From Roseomonas gilardii subsp. gilardii (GTDB taxonomy: Bacteria; Pseudomonadota; Alphaproteobacteria; Acetobacterales; Acetobacteraceae): a stretch of 64,000 nucleotides of DNA. Of the stretch, positions 21,158 through 36,687 are shown in pieces. Where the stretch lies: contig NZ_CP095554.1 in the NCBI RefSeq assembly GCF_023078375.1, positions 2,621,001 to 2,685,000 on the forward strand, in the 5' to 3' direction. The notes under the pieces were generated by a model. The model saw only the letters and a list, made by a program, of their open reading frames with translations. It was not told where the DNA came from and searched no databases. Made by a program: the position numbers and the translations under genes. The number at the start of each line of letters is the position of its first letter. The first letter of the stretch is position 1.

Positions 21158-22543
21158 TCAGCTCAGCCGGGTCATCACCACGATATAGGCGATGAAGACC
21201 AGGCCGAGGCCCCAGACCACGCCACTGATCTCCCGCGCCCGGCCGAGCGACAGGAAAAGCAGGATGTAGCTCAGCGTGCCGATCGCCATGCCGTTGATCA
21301 GATTGTTGGTCAGCACCGTCAGCAACAGCGTCAGCGCGACGGGCACGGCATTGGTGAGCTGGCCCAGGTCGATGCGCGTCAGCCCCTGCAGCATCAGCAC
21401 GCCGACCACCACCAGCGCCGGGGCCGTCGCCTGCGGCGGAATCACGGTGAAGACCGGCCAGACGAAGAGCGCCAGGAAGAACAGCGCCGCGACGGTGATG
21501 GAGGTGAGCCCGGTGCGGCCGCCCGCCTGCACGCCGGTGACGGATTCGATATAGGCCGTGACCACGGAGGTGCCGAGGATGGGGCCCACGATCGTCGCCG
21601 TCGCATCCGTGGAGAAGGCCGCCGTGGCATTGGGGATGGAGCCGTCCGGCCGCCGCAGGTTCGCCGCCCCCGTGACACCGATCACCGTCGCCAGCGTCGA
21701 GAAGAACTCGGCGCAGACGAAGTAGAAGAGGATCGGCAGCACCACGACGAAATTCTGGAACATGTAGGAGAAGTCGAGCTGGCCGAAGGTATTCGAGGGC
21801 CAGTGCGGCAGCGCCAGGAAGGCGGAGGGCGTCCTGGTGATGACGGTGCCGTTCGGCAGCGGCACGAAGCAGCCGATGACCGTCAGCACGGCGATGGAAA
21901 GGATCAGCGCGCCGGGGATCTGCCGCGCCACCAGCATCGGCGTGACCAGGATGCCGGCCAGCGTCAGCAGCACGGCGGGTTCGCGCAGCGATCCCATGGC
22001 GATGAAGGTGCTGGGGTTGGCGACCACGAAGCCCGCGCCACGCAGGGCGATGAAGACGATATAGGCGCCGACCGCCGCGCTGATGCCGACCTTCAGCACC
22101 TCCGGCACGTCCTTCGCCACCTTCTCGCGCAGCTTCGTCAGGCTGAGCAGCAGGAAGACCACGCCGGTGAAGCAGACCATGGCGAGCGCGCCCTGCCAGG
22201 GCACGCCCATCCCCTTCACCAGGATGAAGGTGAAGACGACGTTGGAGCCCATGGCCGGCGCCACGGCGAGCGGCAGGTTCGCCGTCAGCCCCATCATCAC
22301 GCTGCCGAAGATGGCGGCCAGCGCGGTGGCGATCACCAGGTCGCCGCGGTCCATACCCGCCTGCGACATGATCGCCGGGTTCACCGCGATGATATAGGCC
22401 ATGGCGGCGAAGGTGGTCAGGCCGGCGATCATCTCCTGCGGCACGGAGCTGTTGCGCTCGCTCAGCTTGAAGAAGCGGTCGAGCGCGCCTTTCGGCCGCG
22501 CATCGTCGACGGGCGCCCCCGCGCCAAGGCTTGCGTTGCTCAC
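21158..22543 (-). CDS. NCS2 family nucleobase permease (AzgA/GhxP-like, guanine/hypoxanthine/adenine)
   Basis: The 461-residue membrane protein has at least 12 hydrophobic segments. It carries the AzgA-subfamily blocks ALDRFFKLSERNSSVPQE at the N terminus and AGLTTFAAMAYIIAVNPAI, LAVAPAMGSNVVFTF and ESVTGVQAGGRTGLTSITVA further on. Members are purine:H+ symporters. The start is a GTG at 22543 with GAGGGGG eight bases upstream. It is 15 bases downstream of the adenine deaminase gene, so import and deamination of adenine are probably coexpressed. A uracil-carrying role is less likely, since UraA-type transporters lack the RFFKLxER start. Confidence 0.88.
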   Translation of the reverse strand: MSNASLGAGAPVDDARPKGALDRFFKLSERNSSVPQEMIAGLTTFAAMAYIIAVNPAIMSQAGMDRGDLVIATALAAIFGSVMMGLTANLPLAVAPAMGSNVVFTFILVKGMGVPWQGALAMVCFTGVVFLLLSLTKLREKVAKDVPEVLKVGISAAVGAYIVFIALRGAGFVVANPSTFIAMGSLREPAVLLTLAGILVTPMLVARQIPGALILSIAVLTVIGCFVPLPNGTVITRTPSAFLALPHWPSNTFGQLDFSYMFQNFVVVLPILFYFVCAEFFSTLATVIGVTGAANLRRPDGSIPNATAAFSTDATATIVGPILGTSVVTAYIESVTGVQAGGRTGLTSITVAALFFLALFVWPVFTVIPPQATAPALVVVGVLMLQGLTRIDLGQLTNAVPVALTLLLTVLTNNLINGMAIGTLSYILLFLSLGRAREISGVVWGLGLVFIAYIVVMTRLS

Positions 22544-22558
22544 GTGGGAAACCCCCTC

Positions 22559-24430
22559 TTACCAGACGACCGGATGCGTCTCGCCGGTCTGCACGTTGAC
22601 GAAGCCCAGCGGCGCCTGCTCGCAGGGGGCCACGAGCACCCAGCGCCAGGGCGCGCAGGTGAGGGTGGCGAAGATCAGGCGTTCCGGGAAACCGGGGAAC
22701 CAGCGGGGGTGGAAGGTGGGCTCGTACATCCACTCCACCTTCGCGCCCTCGTCATAGAGGTGCTGCATCTCCGCGTTCAGCGCCTCCGCCGGGCGGCAGG
22801 TCATCAGCCCGCCGACCTCGTAGCGCACGGTGGCGGCCAGCTCGCCCTCCCGCACCAGGGCCCAGCCGCCGCCGATCCCGCGCAGCGCGTTCACGGCCTT
22901 CGCCATGGCCGCGTCGCAGGAACCGACGACCCAGATATTGTGCTTGTCATGCGCGACGGAGCAGGCCAGCGCGGTGCCGGGCGTGGCCGGCCCGCAGCCG
23001 AGCCAGAACATCCGCGCCGTCCGCCCCTCGCCGGAGAAACGGTCCACGATGGCGAATTTCGTGACGTTGCGCGCCGCGTCGCGCTGCACGGCGCCCCCGG
23101 CGACCGGCAGTTCCGTGGTGATGAAGCCGTCATTCCAGTGGAAGGGGCGCAGCAGCGCCGCCTGCATCGTCGCGCGGCCCGGTTCGGCGGCGATGCGGAA
23201 ATCCTCCGCCACCATCTCGCGCCGGATGTTCACCGTCCGCGTCGCCCAGCCGGGCCAGTCGATACGCGGCACCGGGCCGGTATAGCGCGTGCCCTCGCTC
23301 ACCGGCTGCCCATCGGCCCAGACCTTGGCGATCTCCAGCGCCGCGACATCGCGCAGCAGCACCACATCGGCGAAGCGGCCGGGGGCGAGGCTGCCGACCC
23401 AGGGCGTCAGCCGCATGTGCCGCGCCGGGTTCAGCGTGACGCACTGGATCGCGGTCTCGGGGGCGAGGCCCAGGCGGATCGCGGTGCGGGCATTGTGGTC
23501 CGTGGCCCCCAGCCTGATCGTGTCCGAGGCGCTGCGGTCGTCGGTGGTGAAGGCGACCTGCGACCAGTCGGCGAGGCCCTTGTCCAGCAGCCAGGGGATC
23601 ACCTGGTCCATGGAATAGGGACGGATCTCGGTGAAGATGCCGTGGCGGAGCTTCTCCCACACCTCCTCCGGCGACCAGGCCTCATGGTCCGAGGCGAGGC
23701 CGGCGGCGGCGAAGGCGTTGATCTCCGGCAACTCGCGCAGCCCCGCGCCATGGCCCTCCACCACGCCGCGCTGGGCGAAGGTCGCCTGGATCATGCCCCA
23801 GAGCCGCTTGTAGGAAGGGTTCTCCGGGTTCCAGACGGCGGGCCAGTCCATCACCTCGTCCAGCCCGGCCACCATCAGGCTCTCGCGCAGGAAGCCCTGC
23901 TGCTCGTCATGGCCGAACCAGCCGCCGCCCCATTCATAGGCGGTGGGCGGCACGGCGGAGCCGGGCAGGGGGAAGATCTTCAGCGGCGAGCCCTGGCGGC
24001 GCGCGGTGAGCCAGAATTCCAGGTTGTGCGGCCCATCCACGTTGGAGAATTCGTGGCTGGCCTCGCAGGTCCAGGTATTGCCACGCGGCAGTACCAGCGC
24101 CGCCTCCCATTCCGGGGTGAGGTGGGAGCTCTCGATATGCTTGTGCACCTCGCCGAAGCCGGGCACGGCGGCGAGGTCCGGCTCATGCACATGCTCCGCC
24201 GCCTCGCCGGGCCAGGAGCCGGCGGGGCCGACATAGGCGATCCGGCGGCCCCGGATGACGATCTCGGCATCCTCCATCCAGCTCCGCGTGTGCACGTCCA
24301 GCAGCCGCCCGACCCGCAGCACCCGGTCCGCCGGGCGTTTCCCCAGGGCCACCAGTGTCAGCTCCTGACGGATGCTCACCTCGTTCGCGGCATCGATCAG
24401 CAGGTCGTCGGGGAGAGGGGAAGGGGTCAT
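22559..24430 (-). CDS. ade: Adenine deaminase
   Basis: This amidohydrolase of about 623 residues has the metal site PGFGEVHKHIESSHLTPEWE, corresponding to the H-x-H-I-E-S-S of Ade-type adenine deaminases. Other family blocks are VLPRGNTWTCEASHE, SDHEAWSPEEVWEKLRHGI, FTTDDRSASDTI and VTLNPARHMRL. A C-terminal Ade domain carries ACSVAHDKHNIWVVGS and GGWALVREGELAA. It converts adenine to hypoxanthine and ammonia. The ATG at 24430 gives a family-like N terminus; an SD site is not clear. A purine permease gene follows at once. It lies downstream of the URC1-URC4-upp operon across a 397-base gap. Confidence 0.85.
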   Translation of the reverse strand: MTPSPLPDDLLIDAANEVSIRQELTLVALGKRPADRVLRVGRLLDVHTRSWMEDAEIVIRGRRIAYVGPAGSWPGEAAEHVHEPDLAAVPGFGEVHKHIESSHLTPEWEAALVLPRGNTWTCEASHEFSNVDGPHNLEFWLTARRQGSPLKIFPLPGSAVPPTAYEWGGGWFGHDEQQGFLRESLMVAGLDEVMDWPAVWNPENPSYKRLWGMIQATFAQRGVVEGHGAGLRELPEINAFAAAGLASDHEAWSPEEVWEKLRHGIFTEIRPYSMDQVIPWLLDKGLADWSQVAFTTDDRSASDTIRLGATDHNARTAIRLGLAPETAIQCVTLNPARHMRLTPWVGSLAPGRFADVVLLRDVAALEIAKVWADGQPVSEGTRYTGPVPRIDWPGWATRTVNIRREMVAEDFRIAAEPGRATMQAALLRPFHWNDGFITTELPVAGGAVQRDAARNVTKFAIVDRFSGEGRTARMFWLGCGPATPGTALACSVAHDKHNIWVVGSCDAAMAKAVNALRGIGGGWALVREGELAATVRYEVGGLMTCRPAEALNAEMQHLYDEGAKVEWMYEPTFHPRWFPGFPERLIFATLTCAPWRWVLVAPCEQAPLGFVNVQTGETHPVVW

Positions 24431-24577
24431 GGCATATCCGGCGGGCTGGAGACGGCGGCCACACGGATCGTGATCCCCGGCCACCGGGTCCCGGGGAAAA
24501 TCTTGCAATTTGAGTGCCATGTACAGGGCCGCCGCGGATCGCCGCCGGCCGGGGGCGTGTCGGGCCGGGGAGCTCAG

Positions 24578-24827: not shown

Positions 24828-25469
24828 TCACTTGGTGCCGAAGAGCCGGTCCCCCGCATCGCCCAGGCCGGGCAGGATATAGGCATGGCCGTTCAGCTCG
24901 CGGTCCAGCGAGGCGGTGAAGACCGGCACGTCCGGATGCGCCTCGGCGAAGACGCGCAACCCCTCCGGCGCGGCGAGCAGGCAGACGAAGCTCACCTGCG
25001 ACGCCCCGGCCTGCTTGATCCGCGACACGGCGGCGGCGGCGGAATGGCCGGTGGCCAGCATCGGGTCCACCGCGATCACCTGCCGGGCGCCGATATCCTC
25101 GGGCAGCTTCAGGTAGTATTCCACCGGCACCAGGGTCTGCGGGTCCCGGTACAGGCCGACATGGCCGACGCGGGCGGAGGGGACGAGGTCCAGCATCCCC
25201 TGCAGCAGCCCGTCGCCGGCCCGCAGGATGGACACGAAGCAGAGCTTCTTGCCGGACAGGATGGGCGCCTCCATCACCTCCAGCGGCGTCTCGATGCTGG
25301 TGGTCTCCAGCGGCAGGTCGCGCGTGACCTCATAGGCCATCAGCAGGCTGATCTCGCGCGCCAGGCGGCGGAACTCCCCGGTGGAGGTCTCCTTGCGGCG
25401 CATCAGCGTCAGCTTGTGCTGCACCAGCGGGTGGTCGATCACCTTCAGGGTCGGATAGGCGGCGGGCAT
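24828..25469 (-). CDS. upp: Uracil phosphoribosyltransferase
   Basis: The 213-residue enzyme converts uracil and PRPP to UMP. It shows the UPRT features [15 protein letters not shown] at the start, [13 protein letters not shown], the PRPP loop [15 protein letters not shown], and the C-terminal uracil site [20 protein letters not shown]. It is the last gene after URC1-like and URC4-like genes, with 48 bases between. In the URC route, uracil must first be made into a nucleotide, which is the job of the UPRTase (URC6 in yeast). That explains its place here in addition to ordinary salvage. Confidence 0.96.
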
Positions 25470-25517
25470 GGCGTGGGGCCTTCTTCGTCTCGGCGGGCTG
25501 GGAAGCGGCGGGCAGGG

Positions 25518-26759
25518 TCAGAAGACCGTGCCGTCGCTCCGCACGTTCAGGGGCGGCGTGCCGCCCGGGCGTTTCTCGCGGGCGATGCGGCGGCCGGCGG
25601 CCCAGGTGCCGCCCTCCAGCACGCGGGCCAGGGGCATCCCGGCGGCGGTGAGGCCCAGCCGGGCGCGGACGCCCTCCGCCACCCGGTCCAGCAGCGCCAC
25701 GGTCAGGGCGCGCCATTCCACGATGGCCTCATGCTCCACGGGCAGGGGGCCTTCCGCCAGGGCGGGGTCACGCAGCTCCAGCACGCCGAGATCCAGGAAC
25801 AACCCGCCATTGCGGTATTCCGGCAGGCCGGTGAGCTCGTCGAGCCCGGTCACGCGCAGCCCGGCCTCCTCCAGCGCCTCGATGAGCGAGTAGCTGAGCC
25901 ATTGCGACAGCTTGTGGAAGGGCAGCAGGCCGGGCGCGGGCTCCTCCGGCGCGGCGAGGGGGTGGCGCCAGACATCGCCGAGATTCTCGCCGCCCAGGCT
26001 GAGCCGCGAGGGCCAGATCGGCGCGAAACCCTCCAGCACCGCCGCCAGCACGGTGCGGGCGGGCAGGGTGCCCTCCTCGGCCCGCGCCGCCAGATGGTCG
26101 TAGAGGCGTCCGATCCGCGCCTGCGGGGCGAAGATGTCCGGCCGGGCGCGCAAGGCTTCGCCCAGCGCCCGCATCAGCGCGGCGCGGCCCTCCAGCCCTT
26201 CCAGCGGGTTGCCCGGCCCGGCCTGGAAGGCGGCGCCGAGCGCGGCGGCGCTGATCCGCGACAGGCCATCCGCATCGGCGCGCAGGGGATGGGCCGGATC
26301 GCCGGAAAAGAGGCCAGCCGAGAAGGCATGCAGGCTGGCCACCGCCAGCCCCTCGGAGCGGGCGATGCGCTGCCCGTCCTCGGTGAAGGCCCAGTCGGGC
26401 CCGGCCCCGGCATCCAGCAGCACGCTGACGACGCAGAGGTCGAAGCGGATGCGCGCGACCTCCTCGCCCGACTGGTCCTCCAGCATCCGGGCGAGTTCGC
26501 CCCAGCGGTCGCGCCCGCCCGCGGCGAAATGCCGCCAGCGCGCATGATAGGGGATGGCGAGGTCCGGGTAGTTGTCGCGGATCACCGCCGTGACGTAATC
26601 CGCCGCCGCCTCCAGCCGCTCCGGATGCAGCCGGAAATGCGGCAGCGCGTCGCGTTCCGCCAGCGCCAGCATGGCATGGGCGCGCCGCCGGATCGTCGCC
26701 GGATCGCGCAGCAGGGCGAGCTGGGCGGCGAGGCCGGCCCTGTCCTCCGCCGCGCTCAC
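25518..26759 (-). CDS. URC4/Urg3 family protein (DUF1688), uracil catabolism
   Basis: The 413-residue protein resembles the DUF1688/URC4 family, required for the URC uracil-degradation route of Lachancea kluyveri and widespread in bacteria. Recognisable segments are LRDPATIRRRAHAML, DLAIPYHARWRHF, RIRFDLCVVSVLLDAGAG, RSEGLAVASLHAF and the end RPGGTPPLNVRSDGTVF. There is no signal peptide or membrane helix. Its biochemical step is not firmly assigned; it is thought to act after the ring is attacked, towards urea and a C3 product. The GTG start overlaps the URC1 stop (GTGA), so the two proteins are translationally coupled, which fits consecutive steps or a complex. Confidence 0.88.
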   Translation of the reverse strand: MSAAEDRAGLAAQLALLRDPATIRRRAHAMLALAERDALPHFRLHPERLEAAADYVTAVIRDNYPDLAIPYHARWRHFAAGGRDRWGELARMLEDQSGEEVARIRFDLCVVSVLLDAGAGPDWAFTEDGQRIARSEGLAVASLHAFSAGLFSGDPAHPLRADADGLSRISAAALGAAFQAGPGNPLEGLEGRAALMRALGEALRARPDIFAPQARIGRLYDHLAARAEEGTLPARTVLAAVLEGFAPIWPSRLSLGGENLGDVWRHPLAAPEEPAPGLLPFHKLSQWLSYSLIEALEEAGLRVTGLDELTGLPEYRNGGLFLDLGVLELRDPALAEGPLPVEHEAIVEWRALTVALLDRVAEGVRARLGLTAAGMPLARVLEGGTWAAGRRIAREKRPGGTPPLNVRSDGTVF

Positions 26760-28078
26760 TCCTGCAGCCCGCGTCCCTTGATGCGCGCCAGCTCGGCGGC
26801 ATCCGGCACCTTGTCGGTGAAGTATCCGGCGGCCTTCTTGGCGTCCATCTCCACCTGCGCATCGGGCGGGATCAGCTCCTCGGGGATGGGCACGCGCTCC
26901 ACCACCTCGATGCCGCTGGCGACGATCGGCTCGTATTTCATGTTGCTCATCGAGACGAGCCGGTCGATCCGCGTGATGCCGAGCCAGTGCAGCACATCCG
27001 GCATCAGCTCCTGGAAGCGCATGTCGTGCACGCCCGCCACACCCGCCGTGCAGGCGAAATAGCGGTCGGCACGGTCGCCACCCTCCTGCCGCTTGCGCGC
27101 ATTGTAGACGAGGAACTTCGTCACTTCCCCCAGGGCGCGCCCTTCCTTGCGGTTGTAGACGATGACGCCCACCCCGCCGCGCTGCGCCTGCGCCTCCTCG
27201 ATGCAGACCTCGATCCCATGCGCCAGATAGGGGCGGCAGGTGCAGATGTCGGAGCCGAACACGTCGGAGCCGTTGCACTCGTCATGGATGCGGCAGGCGA
27301 TGCGCGTCTCCGGCTGGCCCAGCTTCGCCGGGTCGCCGAAGAGATAGACGGTCATGCCGCCGATCGGCGGCAGGAAGGTCTTGAGGTCGGGCCGCGTCAC
27401 CAGTTCCGGGAACATGCCGCCGGTCTGCTCGAAGAGGCCACGGCGCAGGTCGTTCTCGGTGATGCCGAAGCGTTCCGCCACCCCCGGCAGCCACCAGACC
27501 GGCTCGATGGCAACCTTGGTCACGCGCGCATCGCCGCTGGCGCCGAGGATCTGCCCATCCGGCTCCAGCCGCCCGGCGCGCATCGCGGCGGTCAGCTCCG
27601 GCATGTTGATATGCGCCTTGGTGACCGCGATGCTCGGCCGGATGTCGCGCCCCGCGGCGATCTCGGCGCCGAAGGCCTCGGTGGTCATGTGGCCCCAGGG
27701 GTCGAGCGAGACGATCCTCGCCGGGTCTCCCCATTGCAGGAAGGGGCCGATCGGTTCGGCCGGGCGGGTGTTGGTCAGGTCCGGCCGGTGCCCGGCGGAA
27801 AGCTGCCCGGCGGCGACGGCCAGGGCGCGGTAGAGCGCATAGGACCCCGCATGGGTGCCAATGGCGTTGCGGTTGCCCTCGCCGGGGGTGGCGATCACCG
27901 GGCCGCGCCGCTGCGGATCGGCGGCGCCCCACTGCACCGGCGGCGCGATCTGGCCGCCGATCCCGGGATGCGAGGTGAGGATGATGGGCCGCGCCGGCCC
28001 GGGCCGGTTGCCGCGGAGGGCCGCCTGCGGCAGCGGCGCGGCGAGCGGGGACGGCACGGTTTCCGGGATCTGGCTCAT
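26756..28078 (-). CDS. URC1-like GTP cyclohydrolase II family protein, uracil catabolism
   Basis: The 440-residue protein has a C-terminal RibA (GTP cyclohydrolase II) fold extended by about 230 residues at the N terminus, the architecture of URC1. The zinc cysteines are kept with RibA spacing: Cys268, Cys279 and Cys281 in HDECNGSDVFGSDICTC. A RibA-like catalytic stretch follows (YNRKEGRALGEVTKFLVYNA). In the URC pathway this homologue opens a pyrimidine ring instead of the guanine imidazole ring. The presence of URC4 and upp in the same operon, and of no rib genes, argues for uracil catabolism over riboflavin synthesis. The ATG at 28078 has a good SD site (AGGGGAG). The operon is divergent from a RutR-like gene. 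Confidence 0.88.
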   Translation of the reverse strand: MSQIPETVPSPLAAPLPQAALRGNRPGPARPIILTSHPGIGGQIAPPVQWGAADPQRRGPVIATPGEGNRNAIGTHAGSYALYRALAVAAGQLSAGHRPDLTNTRPAEPIGPFLQWGDPARIVSLDPWGHMTTEAFGAEIAAGRDIRPSIAVTKAHINMPELTAAMRAGRLEPDGQILGASGDARVTKVAIEPVWWLPGVAERFGITENDLRRGLFEQTGGMFPELVTRPDLKTFLPPIGGMTVYLFGDPAKLGQPETRIACRIHDECNGSDVFGSDICTCRPYLAHGIEVCIEEAQAQRGGVGVIVYNRKEGRALGEVTKFLVYNARKRQEGGDRADRYFACTAGVAGVHDMRFQELMPDVLHWLGITRIDRLVSMSNMKYEPIVASGIEVVERVPIPEELIPPDAQVEMDAKKAAGYFTDKVPDAAELARIKGRGLQE

Positions 28079-28216
28079 CGCGCGAAGCTCCCCTGGCGGG
28101 CGGTTTCCTTCCAGGGCGGGGCTGGCCGGGGGGAGGGGATCTGCACGACGCGCTGGATCATCCGGAAGGGCTCCATGGCGAGGATGGCCGCTCAAGTCAG
28201 GGAGGCTATTGTGACC

Positions 28217-28232
28217 TTGACCGATCGGTCAA
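28217..28232. promoter_or_regulatory. Predicted RutR-type operator
   Basis: TTGACCGATCGGTCAA is a perfect 16-bp palindrome in the 197-base divergent region between the URC operon and the TetR gene. It matches the E. coli RutR site TTGACCAnnTGGTCAA except for the two symmetric inner bases. It lies 44 bases upstream of the regulator start and 139 bases from the URC1 start, so it can control both directions. Confidence 0.75.
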
Positions 28233-28275
28233 CTTGCAAGATGGGCACGGGTCGGCCGCTCTGCGGGGGATCGGA

Positions 28276-28953
28276 ATGGCGAAGCACGCGGAAACGGCAG
28301 GAACCGATGCGGGCGAGGGCAGGCCTGCCTCACGCGAAGGCAGGCGCCAGGCGCTGCGGGCGCAGATCCTGCGGGCTGCGGAGCGCGTCTTCGCCGAGGC
28401 GGGCTTCGCCGGGGCCAGCATGTCGGCCCTGGCCGAAGCCGCCGGGCTGCCGAAGGCCAACCTGCATTACTATTTCGGCACCAAGGAAGCGCTCTACCGC
28501 GCGGTGCTGGACGACATCCTGGCGCTCTGGCTCTCCGCGACCGACGACATCCGCCCCGGCAGCGACCCCGCGACAGCGCTCACCGCCTATATCCGCGCCA
28601 AGATGCGGCATTCGCGCCTGCGGCCCCATGCATCCCGCGTCTTCGCCAATGAGGTGCTGCACGGAGCGCCCCAGTTGCACGGCTTCTTCGCCACGGAATT
28701 GCGGGATCTCGTGGAACAGAAGGCCAAGGTGATGGAGGGGTGGATCGCCGCCGGGCTGATGCACCCGATCGATCCGCGCCACCTCTTCTTCTCCCTCTGG
28801 GCCATGACCCAGACCTATGCGGACTTCGCGGCGCAGATCACCCCGGTGCTGGGCATCCCGGAGATGGACGAACGGAGCTGCGCGGAGGGCGAAGAGACCA
28901 TCCTCAGGCTCATCCTGGGTGCCTGCCTGCCCCGGCGGGACATGCCACCGTGA
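28276..28953 (+). CDS. rutR: TetR family regulator, RutR-like (predicted uracil/thymine-responsive)
   Basis: The 225-residue protein has a TetR N-terminal domain (QILRAAERVFAEAGFAGASM, AEAAGLPKANLHYYFGTKEA). Its ligand domain shares with RutR the stretches YIRAKMRHSRLRPHASRVFANE, here read in parts, then EVLHGAPQLHGFF and MHPIDPRHLFFSLWAMTQ with TYADFAAQ. RutR senses uracil and thymine and, when unliganded, represses pyrimidine-catabolism genes. I chose the ATG at 28276 because GGGGGA is six bases upstream. The gene is divergent from the URC1-URC4-upp operon with a RutR-type palindrome between. The function is inferred from similarity and context. Confidence 0.82.
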   Translation: MAKHAETAGTDAGEGRPASREGRRQALRAQILRAAERVFAEAGFAGASMSALAEAAGLPKANLHYYFGTKEALYRAVLDDILALWLSATDDIRPGSDPATALTAYIRAKMRHSRLRPHASRVFANEVLHGAPQLHGFFATELRDLVEQKAKVMEGWIAAGLMHPIDPRHLFFSLWAMTQTYADFAAQITPVLGIPEMDERSCAEGEETILRLILGACLPRRDMPP

Positions 28954-29063: not shown

Positions 29064-30140
29064 TTGGGATCCGCCTTGGCGAGCAAGATTACGCGAAGGA
29101 AAGCCATCTGGGCGATAGGTTCTTTCGCCGTCTCGCGTAACGCGGTGGCAGCTTCCCTGCATCGTCCATTGTCTGATGATTTCGCGAAGGGCTGGCACGC
29201 CTTCGCCCGGCACTTCCTTTCGGCCGAGGGCCGGGTGGTCGATACCGCCAATGGCGGGATCACCCATTCCGAAGGGCAGGGATGGGCGATGCACTTCGCC
29301 CTCCGGGCCGGCGACCGGCCCCGCTTCGAGCGAATCGCCGAATGGACACAGGAGAACCTCCGTCTCGGGCCGCATGGCCTGCATGCCTGGCGCGGCACGG
29401 CCAGCGACGGCAGCGAGGATCCCAACAACGCCACGGATGGCGACCTGTTCATCGCCTCGGCGCTGATCCTGGCCGGCGAGCAATGGGGGCGGCCGGACTG
29501 GCGCGCGAGCGGCCTCGCCACCGCGCAGGACATCCTCCGGATGCTGCCGCGCCGGGTCGGCGGCCGGCTCGTCCTGCTGCCGGGGCTGCAGGGCTTCGAG
29601 CGGGGCGGGGAGGTCGTGGTGAACCCGTCCTACTACGCCTTCCCGATGCTGCGCATCCTGGCCCGGGCGCTGCCCGATCCGCTCTGGCTCGACCTGGCCG
29701 CGGATGGCCTGGCCCTGCTGCGGGATTCCTGCTTCGGCCCCCACGGCCTGCCCGCCGACTGGGTCGCGGTGTCCCGGACGGATGGGCGCGTGACGCCGGC
29801 GGAAGGCTGGCCTGCCCGCTTTTCCTACGATGCCGTCCGGGTGCCGCTCTGGCTCGGCTGGGCCGGCCTGGTGGAGGAGCCGGGCCTGCGCGGCCCGGCG
29901 GCCTTCTGGGCCGATGCGCCACGCCCGCCGCCCGCCTGGGTGGATCTGCGCAGCGGGGAAGGCGGGCCGGACCCGGCCCTGCCCGGCATGGTGGCCGTGG
30001 CCGATCTGGCGATGCGGCGCGCCGGCCTGTCCTTGGCGGCCAGCCGTCCTGACGGACTCTCCCGCCCGCCCATGCGGGACGACAACTACTATTCGGCGGC
30101 GCTGAGCCTTCTCGTCGCCCTGGCGGATCGCCCGGCATGA
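29064..30140 (+). CDS. bcsZ: Endo-beta-1,4-glucanase, glycoside hydrolase family 8 (cellulose operon)
   Basis: The GH8 enzyme of about 358 residues has the catalytic acid in THSEGQGWAMHFAL and the catalytic aspartate region NNATDGDLFIASALILAG, as in BcsZ/CMCax. The N terminus ITRRKAIWAIGSFAVS followed by NAVAA looks like an export signal with a twin-arginine-like start. The start codon is uncertain: TTG at 29064 or 29076, neither with a strong SD site. A periplasmic cellulase is needed for proper cellulose export and lies first in this operon, as cmcax does in Komagataeibacter. The 110-base region upstream is AT-richer than the rest and probably holds the operon promoter. Confidence 0.9.
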   Translation: MGSALASKITRRKAIWAIGSFAVSRNAVAASLHRPLSDDFAKGWHAFARHFLSAEGRVVDTANGGITHSEGQGWAMHFALRAGDRPRFERIAEWTQENLRLGPHGLHAWRGTASDGSEDPNNATDGDLFIASALILAGEQWGRPDWRASGLATAQDILRMLPRRVGGRLVLLPGLQGFERGGEVVVNPSYYAFPMLRILARALPDPLWLDLAADGLALLRDSCFGPHGLPADWVAVSRTDGRVTPAEGWPARFSYDAVRVPLWLGWAGLVEEPGLRGPAAFWADAPRPPPAWVDLRSGEGGPDPALPGMVAVADLAMRRAGLSLAASRPDGLSRPPMRDDNYYSAALSLLVALADRPA

Positions 30141-30206
30141 GCGCGCCGTCCCGCCCCCTCGCTCTTTGCATTGCACATGCCCCCGGCCGGTCGAGAGGCG
30201 CCTCGC

Positions 30207-31326
30207 ATGGATGACAAGTCTGATGTGCTGCGCGTGGCGGAAGCCCTGGGCACGACGGGCATGAGGTACCGGAACTTCAGCAACGAGGCCGTGCGCCGCA
30301 ACCCACCGGTCCGGCCGGCCCCGGTGGAAGCGCCGCCATCCGATGCCGCGCCGGCCGCGCCGGCCCAAGTGGCCACGGCACCCATGCCGCCGATGCCCGC
30401 ACCGGCCGTGCCGGCAGCGGCACAGTTTCCTGTCCAGCCTCCCGGCCCGCCTTCCGCGCAATGGATTTCCCAGGGCCAGTCCCCGAACCCGGACCCTGCC
30501 GGCATGCCCCTCCCGCCGCCCGCTTCCAGCCCGCCGCTGCACGACGCGCCGCCCGTACCGGCATCCTGGCCTCTGCCAGCCATGACTTCCGCAATACCCC
30601 CGGCCATGCCTCCGAACGGTTTTCCGGGAACCCCCAGGGAACCCCCCAGGGAAGCCAGCCGGCCTGGCCCGCCTCCGCGCCGCCCCCGCCGGCCGCTGTC
30701 TGGGAGGCGCAGCGGGCCCCGCTCCATCCTGCCCCGCTGCCCGCTGTCCCGCCCATGGCTCCACACGCACTCCCCCAGGCGCTCCCCCAGCCGGAACATC
30801 CCATGTTCCATCCATCGCAGCCGGTCCCGGCACCGCACCGGCCGCCCGCCGCTCCGGCCAGTGCCGCCGCGTGGCCGCCGGGCCATGGCTATCCGCCGCC
30901 CTTCCAGGGCGCGCCTCCCCCCGGTTTTCCCCCCCCCCCGGTTTTCCCCCACCGGGCGCGGGCGCCCATCTCCCTGTGCCACCTCCGGCCCCGCCCTGGC
31001 CTCCGGGGGCCGAAGCGGGTTTCGCCGCGCCGCCCCCGGCCATGCCGGGCTGGCCGGACCCCGCCCGCAACCCGCCCGCCGCGTCCTGGCCGCCGCCCCC
31101 GGCCATGCCGGCGGGCCCCGCGCCCATGGCGGCCGACAATCCGGCACCCGCGCCGCCGCGTACCGTCGAGGTGGATTTCGCGCTCTTCGCCGCCGTGGAC
31201 CACGCCATGGCGGATCTGCGCGCCTCGGTGAAGGTGCCGCAGCCGGGCACCGGCAGCCTCTCGGAACTGCTGCGCGGCATCGCCAACGCGACGGCGCCCC
31301 ATCCCTTCCCCCCGGACCAAAGGTAG
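30207..31326 (+). CDS. Proline-rich cellulose-synthesis accessory protein (two frameshifts in the sequence)
   Basis: The start MDDKSDVLRVAEALGTTGMR and RYRNFSNEAVRR resembles the short conserved N-terminal motif of BcsR/BcsP/CcpAx-type accessory proteins. A long disordered Pro/Ala-rich middle follows. A conserved-looking C terminus (VDFALFAAVDHAMADLRASV, GSLSELLRGIAN) ends the protein. Two frame breaks, at 30626-30640 and in the 11-C run at 30929-30939, are each cured by one added base, giving about 373 residues. It lies between the GH8 gene and bcsQ, the place of ccpAx in Komagataeibacter. I infer a role in placing or activating the synthase; the family name (BcsO, BcsP or BcsH/CcpAx) is unresolved. 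Confidence 0.7.
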
Positions 31327-31333
31327 GCCGAGC

Positions 31334-32134
31334 GTGCCGCTGATCTGCATGGCATCGCCGAAGGGCGGGGTGGGCAAGACCACCCTGGCGGCGAACATCG
31401 CCCACAACCTTTCCCGGGCCGGACGCCGCGTCCTGGTCATGGATTTCGACCCGCAGAACGCGCTGCGGCTGCATTTCGGCCTGTCCATCGGCGACCAGGC
31501 CGGCTGGGCCACGGGCCTGCCCGAGCGGCCCGACTGGCACCGGGCGCTGCGGCAGACGGGCTCGGGCGTCGCGCTCCTGCCCTTCGGCGTGATCGACCTG
31601 GCGCGGGCGCTGGCGCTGGACGGGCTGCTCGGCCGCCAGCCGGAACTGCTGCTCGGCCCCATGCGGGCCATGCTGGCCGACGAGACGCTGCTGATCGTGG
31701 CGGACCTGCCGCCCGGCCCCTCGCGCAGCCTGGCCCTGCTGGCGCCGCTGGCGAATCTCGTGGTCTGCGTCCTCAAGGCCGAGGCGATGAGCGCCGCCCT
31801 GATGCCGGAGGTCGAGAGCGGCCGCTTTTCCGGCATCGGCCTGGGCACCGTCGATACGCACCGGCTGCGGGTGGTGATCAACGAGGTGGACCTGCAGTCG
31901 CGCCTGTCCCGGGCGGCAGCGGAGGCGGTGGCGCGGCATGCCGGCTGGCGCCTGCTGGGCGCGGTGAGCCGGGACGAGGCGGTGATGGAAAGCCTCGCCT
32001 GCCAGCGCCTCGTGGCCGACCATGCGCCGCAGTCCCGCGCCGCCAACGACCTGCGGGAGGTGGCGGAGGCGATCGCCGCCTGCATCCCCGTCCAGCAGCA
32101 GCCCGTGCCCGTCAGCATGTGGGGGGGGCGATGA
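31334..32134 (+). CDS. bcsQ: BcsQ-like ParA/MinD family ATPase of cellulose operon
   Basis: The 266-residue protein starts at GTG 31334 with a deviant Walker A motif ASPKGGVGKTTLAANIAHNL, then VLVMDFDPQNALRLHFGLS and a Walker-B-like LLIVADLPPGPSRSLALL. This is the BcsQ (YhjQ) subgroup. In E. coli BcsQ is needed for polar cellulose secretion and forms a complex with BcsR and BcsE. The stop overlaps the ATG of bcsAB, so translation is coupled. No bcsE or bcsG genes are seen, so this operon mixes an Acetobacter-type core with a BcsQ subunit. Confidence 0.9.
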   Translation: MPLICMASPKGGVGKTTLAANIAHNLSRAGRRVLVMDFDPQNALRLHFGLSIGDQAGWATGLPERPDWHRALRQTGSGVALLPFGVIDLARALALDGLLGRQPELLLGPMRAMLADETLLIVADLPPGPSRSLALLAPLANLVVCVLKAEAMSAALMPEVESGRFSGIGLGTVDTHRLRVVINEVDLQSRLSRAAAEAVARHAGWRLLGAVSRDEAVMESLACQRLVADHAPQSRAANDLREVAEAIAACIPVQQQPVPVSMWGGR

Positions 32135-35100
32135 ACCGTCTCGCGCAGTTCTTCGAACGTCTCTCGCGCGGCCGCGCCGGGGTGCTCCTGCTCACGGCGG
32201 CGGGGCTGCTGCTCGCCATCCCCTTCGTCGTGGCACCCCTGGAGGCCCAGCAGCAGGCCTGGCTGGCCATCGCCTGCTTCCTCGTCTTCCTGCTGGCCTC
32301 GCGGCTCAAGGGACGGGGGGCGAACTTCTTCCTCGTCATGCTCTCGGTGCTGATCTCGGCGCGCTACCTCTACTGGCGCCTGACCGACACGCTCGATTTC
32401 TCGGGCTTCTGGGCGCCCTTCCTCGGCACGGGCCTGCTGCTGGCCGAACTCTATGCGGTGATCGCGCTGCTGCTCGCCTATCTCCAGTCGATCTGGCCGC
32501 TGGAGCGCAAGCCGGTGCCGCTGCCGGACGATCCGGCGGAATGGCCCGTGCTCGACATCTACATCCCGACCTACAACGAGCCGCTCTCGGTGGTGAAGCC
32601 GTCCGTCTTCGGCGCGCTGGCCATGGACTGGCCGAAGGACAAGATGAACGTCTACATCCTCGATGACGGGCGGCGCGAGGAGTTCCGCGCCTTCGCCGAG
32701 GATATCGGCTGCGGCTACATGATCCGTCCCGACAACAAGGGTGCCAAGGCCGGCAACATCAACCACGCCCTGACCCGGACGAAGGGCGAGTTCATCCTCA
32801 TCTTCGACTGCGACCACGTGCCGGTGCGCGCCTTCCCGCAGATGACGCTGGGCTGGATGCTGCGCGACCCGAAGATCGGCATGCTGCAGACGCCGCACCA
32901 CTTCTACAGCCCCGATCCCTTCGAGCGGAACCTCGCCTCCGGCCTGCGCGTGCCCAACGAGGGCCTGCTCTTCTACGGGCTGATCCAGTCGGGCAACGAC
33001 CTCTGGAACGCGACCTTCTTCTGCGGCTCCTGCGCCGTGATCCGGCGGACGGCGCTGGAGGAGGTGGGCGGCGTGCCGCACCAGACGGTGACGGAGGACT
33101 GCCACTGCTCGCTGAAGATGCAGCGGCGCGGCTGGCGCACCGCCTATCTCCGCCTGCCCCTGGCGGCCGGCCTCGCGACGGAGCGCCTCGCGCTGCATAT
33201 CGGCCAGCGCATGCGCTGGGCGCGCGGCATGATCCAGATCTTCCGCGTGGACAACCCCTTCCTCGGCGGCGGCAAGCTGAGCTGGACGCAGAAGTTCTGC
33301 TACGTCTCCTCGATGTGGCACTTCATGTTCCCGCTGCCACGCTTCGTCTTCCTGACCTCGCCGCTGGCCTTCCTGATCTTCGGGCAGAACCTGATCGCCG
33401 CCTCGCCGCTGGCCATCGCCGCCTATGCCGGGCCGCATGTGATCCACGCCGTGGCCACCAACAGCCGCCTGCAGGGCTCCGTGCGGCATTCCTTCTGGTC
33501 GGAGATCTACGAGACCGTGCTGACGCTCTGGCTGCTGCCGGTGATGCTGGCGACGCTGCTCGACCCGAAGAAGGGCAAGTTCAATGTCACCGACAAGGGC
33601 GGCGTGCTGGAGGAAGGCTTCTTCGACGTGCGCGCCGTCTATCCCAATGCCGTGCTGGCGCTGGTGATGTTCGGCGGCCTGCTCCTCGGCATCTGGGGCC
33701 TCCTGAGCAGCGGCACGGGCACGCTGGCCTTCCAGGCCTATGCGCTGAACACGCTCTGGCTGTCGCTGTCGCTCTTCATCGTGCTGGCCGGGATCGCGGT
33801 GGGGCGCGAGCGGCGCCAGGTGCGGGAACGCGCCCGCGTCTCGGCCCGGCTCCCGGCCTCGGTGGTGCTGCCGGATGGCCGGGTGCTGGAGGGGCACAGC
33901 GTGGACCTCTCGCTGGGCGGCGCCGCGATCGAGGTCGCCGCCCCGGACAACATCGCCCCCGATCAGCCGCTGGTGCTGGACGTGGCGGTGGGGCCGGACC
34001 GCGTTTCCCTGCCGGCCCAGGCGCTGCGCTGGCAGAACAACAAGCTCCAGCTCCGCTTCACGCCGCAGAACCTGCGCGACGAGGGCAACATCACCCGCGT
34101 CGTGCTCTGCCGCGCCGATAGCTGGCTGCACTGGGACAGCGTGCGCCGCGACCGGCCGATGCGGGCGCTCTACGAGGTGGGCGTCAGCATCCGGGGCCTG
34201 TTCCGCGGCGACAGCCAGCTTTCCCTGCGCCGCAACCGCCGCCCGGTGCCGGGTGGCAAGGCCCGCCGCCCGGGCGCGCAGCGTGCCGCCCTGCTGCTCG
34301 GCCTGGGCCTGGGCGTGAGCGCGGCGGCGGCACAGCCCGCGCCGCCGCCCCCGCGCCCGGTGACAAGGCAGGCCGCGCCCGCGCCGGCATGGACCTCCCC
34401 CGACCTGCCCGCGCCCGCCGAGCCTCCGGCCGCCGCCTCGCAACCGGTCCAGGACGGTGTCCAGGAGCCGGGCCATGGGGGGGGGCAGGGAGCGGTCCAG
34501 GGGGCAGTCCAGGGATCGCCCGGCGCGGCGGTCCCGGCCGCCGCGTCCCAGGGCCGGGTCCTGCGCCGCACCCTGCGCGAGCTCGGCCTGCAATCGCCGA
34601 TGCAGCTCCGGGGCCTGACCGACCTTCAGGGCGTGCTCTTCGGGGTGCGGGAGGACGAGGTGGTGACAGGCGCGCGGCTCGTGCTGCGCGGCGCCACCAG
34701 CCCGGCGCTGATCCCGGAACTGTCGCAGATCGCGGTGACGCTGAACGAGCAGTTCATCGGCGCCATCACGCCGGAGCGCGCGCGGCCGAGCTTCGGGCCG
34801 CTGGAATTCCCCATCAACCCGGTCTTCTTCGCCGATACCAACCGGCTGAACTTCCGCTTCACCGGCCGCTATGCCGCGGAGTGCAACGACCCGCTCTCGG
34901 GGCTGCTCTGGTCCACCATCTCGGACCAGTCCGTGCTGGAGATCACGACCGAGCACCTGGCCATGCCGCGCGACCTGGCGCGGCTGCCAGCGCCCTTCTT
35001 CGACCGGGTGCAACTGCGCGCGCCGCTGGTCCTGCCCTTCGTGGTGCCGGCCGAGGCGAGCAACGACCTGGCGCGGGCGGCGCTGATCGCCTCCTCCTGG

Positions 35101-36687
35101 TTCGCGGTGCAGGCGGACTATCGCGGCGCCAGCTTCCCGGTCTCCAGCGCCCCGCCGACCCGGGGCCATGGCGTGGTGGTGGCGGTGGGCGCGGATTCCG
35201 TGCCCGGCGTGGCGCTGCCCCGCTTCGAGGGGCCGACCCTGGCGCTGGTGCCCAACCCCACCGACCCCGAGGCGGCCCTGCTGGTCGTCGGCGGCCGCAC
35301 CGGGGCTGAGGCCGTCGCCGCCGCCCAGGCGCTGGCCGTGTCCAGCCAGGGGCTGTCGGGGGAGGCCGCGCTGGTCTCGGCCCCCGACATCGCGCCGCGC
35401 CAGCCCTATGACGCGCCGCGCTGGATCCGCACCGAACGGCCGGTGCGCTTCGGCGAGCTGGTGGACCCGTCGGAGCTCCAGTCCTACGGCTTCGCACCCG
35501 GCAACATCGCCGTGCCGTTCCGCACCGCGCCCGATGTCTATACCTGGCGGCAGCGGCCCATCCCGGTGGACCTGTTCTTCCGCGCGCCGCCGGGCCCCGT
35601 GGCGGACCTCCAGGTGTCCCGCCTCGATGTCTCGCTGAACGGCAACTACCTGAAGTCCCTGCCACTGCGGGAAGGCGATCCGGCCTGGCCCTGGAACTGG
35701 GTGGCGCGGCAACTGGGCGTGAACTTCGGCGAGGACCGCGGCAGCGGCTCGGCCGGCCTGCCGCCCTACCTGGTCTTCGGCCTGAACAACCTGCAGATGC
35801 GCTTCGACATGCGCCCGCTGAACCGGGGCGACTGCACCGCCATCCCGGGCGACATCCGCGCCTCGATCGACCCGGACAGCACGATCGACCTGTCCCGCTC
35901 CTACCGCTTCACCACCCTGCCGAACCTCGCCTTCTTCGCGGGCTCCGGCTTCCCCTACACGAAGCTCGCGGATCTTTCCGACACGGCGCTGGTGCTGCCG
36001 GACCGGCCGACATCGCTGGAACTCTCCAACGCCATGGGGCTGATCGGCCGGCTGTCGGCCAATACGGGCGTGCCGGCCCTGCGCCTGGCCATCGCCCATT
36101 CCGGCAGCCTGGACAGCGTGGCGGACCGCAACCTGCTGGTGGTCGGCGCGCTCAACCGCGTGCCCGGGCTCGCGCGCCTGCTGCGGGACGGCCCGGTCCA
36201 CCTGGAGGGCAACCGCCTCCAGGTCTCGCTGCCGGGGCCGCTGGAGAATTTCCGCAACATCTTCCTGTCGGATGACCGGCTGCGCGACCGGACGCGGCTG
36301 AACGCCGTCGTGTCCGGGCCAGGGGACGGCCAGGGCATCATGATCGGCGCCGAAAGCCCGCTCCAGGCGGGGCGGACGCTGGTGGCGATCACCGGCACCA
36401 CGCCCCAGGGCGTCGAGGCCATGCTGAACGCGCTGAGCGACCCGGACCAGTTGCCGCGCATCCAGGGCGATGTCGCCTGGCTGGCGGGCGGGCGGATCGA
36501 GTCCTACCGCATCAGCCCGACCTATTCGGTGGGCAGCCTGCCGATCTGGCTCTGGCCGCAGCTCTATCTCGGCAACCGCCCCGACGCGGTGCTGCTGCTG
36601 GTGGTGGGGGCGGCGCTGCTGCTGGCCATCCCGTCCTACTGGATCATCCGGCGGCGCGTCGCGGCCCGCCTCAGGGCGCAGATCTGA
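32131..36687 (+). CDS. bcsAB: Cellulose synthase BcsA-BcsB fusion (AcsAB type)
   Basis: The 1518-residue protein joins the catalytic and periplasmic subunits. The BcsA half has TM helices at both ends of a GT2 domain with Asp179 (LDDG), DCD at 226-228, TED at 321-323 and QRMRW at 359-363. A PilZ domain follows, with c-di-GMP residues R561-x3-R565 and DLSLGG at 592-597. Near residues 718-734 a hydrophobic stretch (AALLLGLGLGVSAAAAQ) looks like the former BcsB signal peptide. After a Pro/Gln-rich linker comes BcsB, ending in a C-terminal membrane anchor (DAVLLLVVGAALLLAIPSYW). It polymerises UDP-glucose and exports the chain, activated by c-di-GMP. Processing into two subunits at the internal signal is plausible. 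Confidence 0.96.
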   Translation: MNRLAQFFERLSRGRAGVLLLTAAGLLLAIPFVVAPLEAQQQAWLAIACFLVFLLASRLKGRGANFFLVMLSVLISARYLYWRLTDTLDFSGFWAPFLGTGLLLAELYAVIALLLAYLQSIWPLERKPVPLPDDPAEWPVLDIYIPTYNEPLSVVKPSVFGALAMDWPKDKMNVYILDDGRREEFRAFAEDIGCGYMIRPDNKGAKAGNINHALTRTKGEFILIFDCDHVPVRAFPQMTLGWMLRDPKIGMLQTPHHFYSPDPFERNLASGLRVPNEGLLFYGLIQSGNDLWNATFFCGSCAVIRRTALEEVGGVPHQTVTEDCHCSLKMQRRGWRTAYLRLPLAAGLATERLALHIGQRMRWARGMIQIFRVDNPFLGGGKLSWTQKFCYVSSMWHFMFPLPRFVFLTSPLAFLIFGQNLIAASPLAIAAYAGPHVIHAVATNSRLQGSVRHSFWSEIYETVLTLWLLPVMLATLLDPKKGKFNVTDKGGVLEEGFFDVRAVYPNAVLALVMFGGLLLGIWGLLSSGTGTLAFQAYALNTLWLSLSLFIVLAGIAVGRERRQVRERARVSARLPASVVLPDGRVLEGHSVDLSLGGAAIEVAAPDNIAPDQPLVLDVAVGPDRVSLPAQALRWQNNKLQLRFTPQNLRDEGNITRVVLCRADSWLHWDSVRRDRPMRALYEVGVSIRGLFRGDSQLSLRRNRRPVPGGKARRPGAQRAALLLGLGLGVSAAAAQPAPPPPRPVTRQAAPAPAWTSPDLPAPAEPPAAASQPVQDGVQEPGHGGGQGAVQGAVQGSPGAAVPAAASQGRVLRRTLRELGLQSPMQLRGLTDLQGVLFGVREDEVVTGARLVLRGATSPALIPELSQIAVTLNEQFIGAITPERARPSFGPLEFPINPVFFADTNRLNFRFTGRYAAECNDPLSGLLWSTISDQSVLEITTEHLAMPRDLARLPAPFFDRVQLRAPLVLPFVVPAEASNDLARAALIASSWFAVQADYRGASFPVSSAPPTRGHGVVVAVGADSVPGVALPRFEGPTLALVPNPTDPEAALLVVGGRTGAEAVAAAQALAVSSQGLSGEAALVSAPDIAPRQPYDAPRWIRTERPVRFGELVDPSELQSYGFAPGNIAVPFRTAPDVYTWRQRPIPVDLFFRAPPGPVADLQVSRLDVSLNGNYLKSLPLREGDPAWPWNWVARQLGVNFGEDRGSGSAGLPPYLVFGLNNLQMRFDMRPLNRGDCTAIPGDIRASIDPDSTIDLSRSYRFTTLPNLAFFAGSGFPYTKLADLSDTALVLPDRPTSLELSNAMGLIGRLSANTGVPALRLAIAHSGSLDSVADRNLLVVGALNRVPGLARLLRDGPVHLEGNRLQVSLPGPLENFRNIFLSDDRLRDRTRLNAVVSGPGDGQGIMIGAESPLQAGRTLVAITGTTPQGVEAMLNALSDPDQLPRIQGDVAWLAGGRIESYRISPTYSVGSLPIWLWPQLYLGNRPDAVLLLVVGAALLLAIPSYWIIRRRVAARLRAQI

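Follow-up and report, generated by a model that had tools for sequence, protein, structure and literature searches.

The stretch of DNA analysed here (the window, 64,000 nucleotides of Roseomonas gilardii subsp. gilardii) corresponds to C1:2621001-2685000 of a 4.62-Mb source genome in two contigs (G000) and carries a compact cluster of three genes, URC1, URC4 and upp, facing a divergent gene of the TetR family (Table 1). A first-pass annotation of the same DNA had read this arrangement as a uracil-catabolism operon, and all four genes were recovered at the same positions by gene calls and by Pfam and NCBIfam searches. NCBIfam cut-offs were exceeded by URC1 and upp, and Pfam domain scores were strong for all four products. 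The GTG start of URC4 shares the tetranucleotide GTGA with the URC1 stop, an overlap that the annotation had also described. We consider it likely, from homology and conservation, that the locus is a uracil-inducible catabolic operon in which a PydR-type repressor would control a route through uridine monophosphate (UMP), with ring opening by URC1, glycosidic cleavage by URC4 and a urease encoded at a distance. Homology supports the annotation's proposal that uracil may be broken down via a nucleotide under a uracil-sensing TetR protein.

Table 1. Genes and regulatory features of the URC locus, in window coordinates.
Feature	Coordinates	Strand	Basis
upp, URC6-type uracil phosphoribosyltransferase, operon gene 3	24828..25469	-	NF001097 277 bits (cut-off 114), TIGR01091 261 (cut-off 208)
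URC4 / DUF1688, proposed ribosylurea-5'-phosphate N-glycosidase	25518..26759	-	PF07958 489 bits; remote Qng1 homology
URC1, GTP_CH_N + diverged GTP cyclohydrolase II domain, proposed UMP ring-opening hydrolase	26756..28078	-	NF005536 730 bits (cut-off 403)
Divergent intergenic region, 197 bp	28079..28275		sequence; no sigma-70 consensus promoter on scanning
Predicted RutR/PydR-type operator TTGACCGATCGGTCAA, perfect inverted repeat	28217..28232		pattern search, window and genome
TetR family, PydR/RutR-like, proposed uracil-sensing repressor, divergent from URC1	28276..28953	+	PF08362 166 bits; RutR structures E 3e-44

The 440-residue URC1 product carries the Pfam domains GTP_CH_N (266 bits) and GTP_cyclohydro2 (55 bits), and the upp product scores 253 bits against the uracil phosphoribosyltransferase (UPRTase) domain. 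The TetR protein has 225 residues when read from the ATG at 28276 (an alternative TTG start lies at 28234) and combines TetR_N (58 bits) with the YcdC-like C-terminal domain TetR_C_3 (PF08362, 166 bits). As a cluster of URC1, URC4 (DUF1688) and UPRTase genes, the locus belongs to the established URC type, reported earlier in bacteria and fungi. URC1 and URC4 are conserved in many species of both groups, and their occurrence in bacteria is not new (PMC3869809).

Our locus survey comprised 143 URC loci: 23 from a sample of the class, 80 named loci and 40 from the family. Some organisms appear in more than one set (L097/L182, L098/L183 and L099/L178 are examples), so that the 143 loci stand for fewer organisms, and several loci break off close to URC1 or URC4 (among them L061, L095, L118 and L187), where absence of a regulator means little; Legionella loci were counted. 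Pseudoroseomonas and Roseomonas were among the best matches of the named URC4 survey, from which the window genome's own records were possibly left out. The order URC1-URC4-upp was found in 22 of the 23 class loci, 62 of the 80 named loci and 33 of the 40 family loci. A RutR-like gene, whose co-occurrence the annotation had proposed to survey, was present in 13 of the 143. At three loci of Xanthobacteraceae/Ancylobacter (L142, L157 and L161), upp was divergent and upstream of URC1 instead of behind URC4.

URC4 and the Qng1 family

We aligned the window URC4 with the proteins of 50 of the 80 named loci (alignment A1, from which L134, with a stop in the reference, was removed and the Legionella loci were left out). 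PF10343 (Q_salvage), the family of the queuosine-5'-phosphate N-glycosylase Qng1 (DUF2419), was matched by 19 of these 51 DUF1688 proteins with a best E-value of 1.1e-4; the window URC4 itself gave no PF10343 match. When 20 DUF1688 proteins were scanned singly, 11 matched the profile at consistent positions and nine had no match. The best stretch covered protein residues of about 255-384 on profile positions 147-271 in nine of the 11, and residues 138-195 on positions 63-109 in the other two. The PF10343 gathering cut-off was missed, the best of the 20 single scans reaching 22.3 bits against 25 (L170).

A second profile, A2, was built from residues of about 130-370 of 15 proteins, namely the 11 single-scan matchers and four proteins not scanned singly. 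Searched against all PDB sequences with E-values up to 10, it returned four distinct sequences (six entries), all of them Qng1/DUF2419, the best at 6.3e-4. Both stretches are present in the alignment of A2 with Qng1, in the same order; K283 of URC4 (in PFHKLSQ) falls on Qng1 K199, and E314 (in EYRNGG) on D231 (7u07 chain numbering). K283 and E314 are invariant in 51 of 51 DUF1688 proteins, and in the Qng1 entry 7ulc an N replaces the D at the aligned D231 position. We take K199 and D231 to be catalytic residues of Qng1. NCBIfam offered no convincing second family for URC4. In 398 genomes of the phylum no Q_salvage protein was found, and a control gave no match there either, so that no deep Qng1 alignment could be drawn from them. 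These matches point to URC4 as a remote homologue of Qng1, with Glu for Asp at the acidic position, and not as a member of PF10343.

The primary substrate of Qng1 is queuosine-5'-monophosphate (PMC12301720). In Lachancea kluyveri, URC1 and URC6 together yield 3-hydroxypropionate and ribosylurea, and URC4 converts ribosylurea to urea (PMC7530994). Homology to Qng1, joined to this yeast role, leads to URC4 as a ribosylurea-5'-phosphate N-glycosidase, and the natural reading is that it would turn ribosylurea-5'-phosphate, a substrate other than that of Qng1, into urea and ribose-5-phosphate.

Several points weigh against this reading. The members of A2 were picked after the Pfam scans, the full-length A1 profile had no match in the PDB, and a single URC4 protein found no solved relative there, with chance-level matches only. 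Comparison of the 51-protein alignment with the Qng1 stretch by hhalign gave an E-value of 5.7e-4 and a probability of 29.5, and that the substrate is phosphorylated rather than free ribosylurea is something we infer. The remote scores, the unmatched full-length profile, the low hhalign probability and the nine single scans without a match would also suit a URC4 that acts on the ring-opened base as a hydrolase or lyase, its similarity to Qng1 reflecting shared nucleotide binding or chance. We regard this alternative as unlikely, since it leaves aside that every distinct PDB sequence found by A2 was a Qng1 and that two separate stretches match in order, with an invariant K and E on K199 and D231. 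The conversion of ribosylurea to urea is, moreover, given to URC4 itself in yeast (PMC7530994).

The divergent regulator and its predicted operator

The strongest regulatory evidence at the locus, overlooked in the first-pass annotation, is the predicted operator box, which lies 43 bp from the TetR ATG and 138 bp from the URC1 ATG. The search pattern TTGACCNNNNGGTCAA was built from the window and from the RutR consensus, and the box is its sole exact match in the 4.62-Mb genome. With up to two mismatches, five matches were found in the window against 1.09 expected, the box again being the only exact one. Allowing one mismatch, the genome held eight such places and 11 for a reversed-pattern control, i.e. 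the background level, so that only the exact match, in its position, carries weight for the operator. Among 20,000 mononucleotide shuffles of the window's 400-bp region, six yielded a box with one mismatch or fewer and none an exact box. The same search run on E. coli as a control gave two hits, one with two mismatches between rutR and rutA and another within rutR (0.18 expected).

The TetR gene occurs at ten family loci and three named loci, and the latter apparently come from organisms already represented among the ten. All 13 have a box with one mismatch or none between TetR and URC1; none of the 130 URC loci without a TetR gene has one upstream of URC1. Five of the TetR-less loci (L047, L053, L134, L140 and L159) do have a box, 2.7 kb or more away from the start of URC1. 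The box beside the regulator gene is a 16-bp palindrome. The RutR operator is palindromic and about 16 bp long (PMC10891134). Two observations count against this assignment: scanning of the 197-bp region revealed no sigma-70 consensus promoter around or overlapping the box, and 130 of the 143 URC loci lack this regulator.

The TetR protein had been described as resembling RutR, which holds for its fold relatives and its pocket. RutR structures are its best solved relatives in a PDB search (E 3e-44). In E. coli RutR, uracil is surrounded by W77, Y97, W167, Q171 and Q179', and K52 lies in the DNA-reading motif (PMC10891134). The corresponding pocket residues W85, Y105, W175, Q179 and Q187 are identical to those of E. 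coli RutR at 5 of 5 positions, and the five residues and the K52 equivalent are identical in the window protein and in 11 of 11 URC-linked regulators. The pocket and the YcdC-type C-terminal domain are those of the RutR/PydR group, and the box is similar in form to that of the rut operon; the protein nevertheless falls below both RutR equivalog cut-offs (TIGR03613, 195 versus 368 bits; NF011584, 168 versus 230 bits), and another pathway lies downstream of it. No second regulator of its type was found in the genome, the next best scoring 49 bits. The TetR protein is probably a uracil-sensing repressor of the URC operon.

We then turned to family genomes without URC and retrieved 19 loci surrounding related regulators (44-63% identical). 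Relatives of reductive-pathway (Pyd-type) genes were present at 18 of the 19, and genes for dihydropyrimidinase, PreA, a PreT-like protein and a carbamoyl hydrolase each at 16. In 14 of them the matched regulator start was preceded, at 12-149 bp, by a box with two mismatches or fewer. In Pseudomonas putida the RutR-like PydR is known to repress the reductive pathway (Hidese 2012, cited in PMC7332683). Since its nearest relatives lie at Pyd loci and its scores fall below the RutR cut-offs, the sensor looks PydR-like, and not borrowed from a Rut system as the annotation had proposed. This likeness to P. putida PydR, itself a RutR-like regulator of pyrimidine breakdown, is drawn from the Pyd context of the sister regulators; the regulator of the window would have URC as its target, in a genome where PreA is not over its cut-off.

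In a tree of 37 regulators (11 URC-linked and 26 from genomes without URC, not including the PydR of P. putida or any RutR from a Rut operon), the 11 form a single clade with support of 100/97, which lies within the diversity of the remaining 26. This clade adjoins the regulators of three genomes (G438, G382 and G472), all with PreA over cut-off. Among 397 genomes of the family, DUF1688 was found in 44 (including two fragmentary cases, G518 and G662), PreA over cut-off in 78 and both in none, where 8.6 would be expected (Fisher 3.5e-5, ignoring kinship). Within a 200-genome sample, 43 genomes had a RutR-like regulator scoring 130 bits or more, and of these five had URC, 35 PreA and three neither; 20 further URC genomes and seven PreA genomes were without such a regulator. 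The regulator probably derives from the reductive pathway, which URC would have replaced while the type of sensor was retained.

Some of the data sit less easily with this origin. At two of the 19 loci (L267 and L270) the box is on the regulator's other side, and at three (L260, L266 and L271) none with up to two mismatches was found within 3 kb. The p-values for exclusivity and, below, for urease are uncorrected for phylogeny. In a tree of URC1 and URC4 together, a 15-row clade (96/98) holds all 11 TetR-bearing loci and four without TetR (L176, L096, L189 and L197), so that TetR presence needs two changes and a single recruitment needs later losses or movement as well. Both trees could be accounted for by one gain followed by losses, or by a cassette that moved.

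Within G000:C1:2383000-2399000 (L252), a RutA-family gene over cut-off lies beside an amidase gene and one that looks by eye like a polysaccharide deacetylase. This gene, the RutR structures as closest solved relatives (E 3e-44) and the identical pocket could all be cited for plain RutR control by a true RutR taken from a Rut operon. We find this improbable, and a direct Rut origin was set aside on the model cut-offs, the tree and the gene context: the protein misses both RutR cut-offs, its nearest relatives in a tree without Rut-operon RutR are at Pyd loci, no other rut gene was recognised in 16 kb around the RutA gene (only RutA and one neighbour being family-scanned), and no box with at most one mismatch occurs in that stretch.

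URC1, urea and the genomic surroundings

The first-pass annotation placed the zinc-type cysteines of URC1 correctly, and Cys268, Cys279 and Cys281 do not vary in any of 135 URC1 homologues, some of whose loci overlap. The long N-terminal extension that it described is the established domain PF12471. URC1 shares with the GTP cyclohydrolase II (GCHII) RibA the domain family (PF00925) and the zinc cysteines, and differs by its extra PF12471 domain and by its motifs. It does not reach the RibA models (56 versus 148 and 52 versus 206 bits), and its solved relatives are 7eev/7ej3 ('GTP cyclohydrolase II', 603 bits), the E. coli-type RibA 2bz0 scoring 39. The genome encodes two further GCHII-domain proteins, one of which has CDCGPQL and TNNPEK and is a RibA with the usual motifs; URC1 has CTCRPYL and SMSNMK at those sites, both strongly conserved in the 135 homologues. 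The RibA motif CDCGxQL is thus present in the genome's own RibA and replaced by CTCRPYL in URC1. On its scores, the replaced motifs and the usual-motif RibA elsewhere, URC1 was rejected as the organism's RibA. We infer that URC1 is a zinc-dependent hydrolase that would open the ring of UMP. A GCHII-domain protein without the zinc cysteines is encoded at G000:C1:2842778-2843200 (L007), with the motif MHAVNMLADTLSRQ, in a 601-residue open frame.

That URC1 is instead a riboflavin or other GTP cyclohydrolase in a cluster serving purine or flavin metabolism would fit its GCHII domain with intact zinc cysteines, the label 'GTP cyclohydrolase II' given by NF005536 and the depositors of 7eev/7ej3, and an adenine-deaminase-like gene and NCS2-type permease downstream on the same strand (also in L174 and L175), yet appears very improbable beside two other GCHII-domain genes, one with CDCGPQL and TNNPEK, the CTCRPYL and SMSNMK of URC1, its linkage with DUF1688 and upp across most loci in each of the three sets, and an adenine-deaminase-like gene in only 2 of 143 loci.

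With no urea gene recognised close by, the annotation had placed the later steps elsewhere in the genome, and a full-length urease alpha gene was found at G000:C1:1539018-1540709. Urea carboxylase, considered as the urea step, was discarded, with no match over cut-off in the genome and urease found instead. If URC makes urea, urease is expected more often in URC than in PreA genomes. It was over cut-off in 37 of 40 URC genomes versus 23 of 40 PreA genomes (p 2.7e-4, ignoring kinship and genome size). The genomes were hand-picked before the result, as 40 of the 44 URC genomes (four less than 80% complete being excluded) and 40 of the 78 PreA genomes; against the comparison, the URC genomes tested were mostly larger than the PreA genomes. 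At 2 of the 143 loci (L207 and L211, genus g318) URC1 is preceded, within a few kb and on its own strand, by a urease alpha gene, which received its family name in L207. A ureF-like gene, recognised by eye and with no NCBIfam match at 1e-20, is also upstream of URC1 on the same strand at these two loci. In the genome of the window, urea is probably split by urease.

The permease and adenine-deaminase-like genes (21158-24520, minus strand; below NCBIfam cut-offs) follow upp after a gap of 307 bp, and the pair is kept only in L174 and L175 among the 143 loci. On the other side, an apparent cellulose synthase cluster adjoins the URC locus (29064-36687, plus strand). It begins with a glycosyl hydrolase 8/BcsZ-like protein below the NCBIfam cut-off, followed by what appear by eye to be a BcsQ-like ATPase and a 1522-residue BcsA/BcsB-like frame; a BcsZ homologue also adjoins URC in L174-L176. 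A phosphopentomutase homologue was found in the fetched stretch of 13 of the 143 loci, in Microvirga, Methylobacterium and Alsobacter (L105, L114, L129, L132, L135, L136, L139, L143, L146, L147, L148, L149 and L163), and it is the gene preceding URC1 in L105 and L129, the two loci inspected for position. Its presence suggests a nucleoside-breakdown setting.

Proposed pathway and comparison with known systems

The preferred reading of the locus, a uracil-inducible operon, can be written out as follows. When uracil is absent, a dimer of the PydR-type TetR protein would sit on TTGACCGATCGGTCAA and block URC1-URC4-upp as well as its own gene; uracil bound in the W85/Y105/W175/Q179/Q187' pocket would release it. 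From its family function, Upp would convert uracil and phosphoribosyl pyrophosphate (PRPP) to UMP. URC1 may then hydrolyse UMP twice, in reactions resembling those of GCHII, so that the ring opens and a three-carbon fragment and ribosylurea-5'-phosphate result. The former could be malonic semialdehyde, to be reduced elsewhere to 3-hydroxypropionate. By its homology, URC4 would cut the N-glycosidic bond of the latter, yielding urea and ribose-5-phosphate; the sugar could return to PRPP, and the urease encoded elsewhere would free ammonia from urea. The regulator itself would have come from the reductive pathway; in sister genera, its relatives are still neighbours of that pathway's genes.

Fungal URC clusters, in Lachancea (Saccharomyces) kluyveri and as urg1/urg2/urg3 in S. 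pombe, have the same trio of GCHII-like protein, UPRTase and DUF1688. All three S. pombe genes are induced by uracil (PMC2174524), and the fungal cluster contains a putative zinc-finger transcription factor (PMC3869809). The locus described here differs in having a TetR/PydR-type protein with a predicted operator instead of the zinc-finger factor, and a urease alpha gene in a genome where urea carboxylase is not over cut-off. Neither RutR/PydR control of URC nor a link between DUF1688 and Qng1 was found in the literature searched, which was largely without subscription journals and in part incomplete in text. As far as this search extends, the pairing of operator and sensor, its probable origin in the reductive pathway and the mechanism proposed for DUF1688 would be new.

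A wider proposal, for which we see the case as evenly balanced, is that DUF1688/URC4 constitutes a second, ureido-specific branch of the Qng1 family, forming with URC1, as a cyclohydrolase that opens the ring of UMP, a cycle in which ribose-5-phosphate, by way of PRPP, would bear the uracil ring during its breakdown and be recovered at the end. In this lineage the whole module would have displaced the reductive pathway and come under that pathway's uracil sensor. The Qng1 link supplies DUF1688 with a testable fold, a reaction and two residues, K283 and E314, and the box, the repressor and uracil together would make a cheap reporter. The locus probably also illustrates how one pathway can take the place of another while the type of sensor stays.

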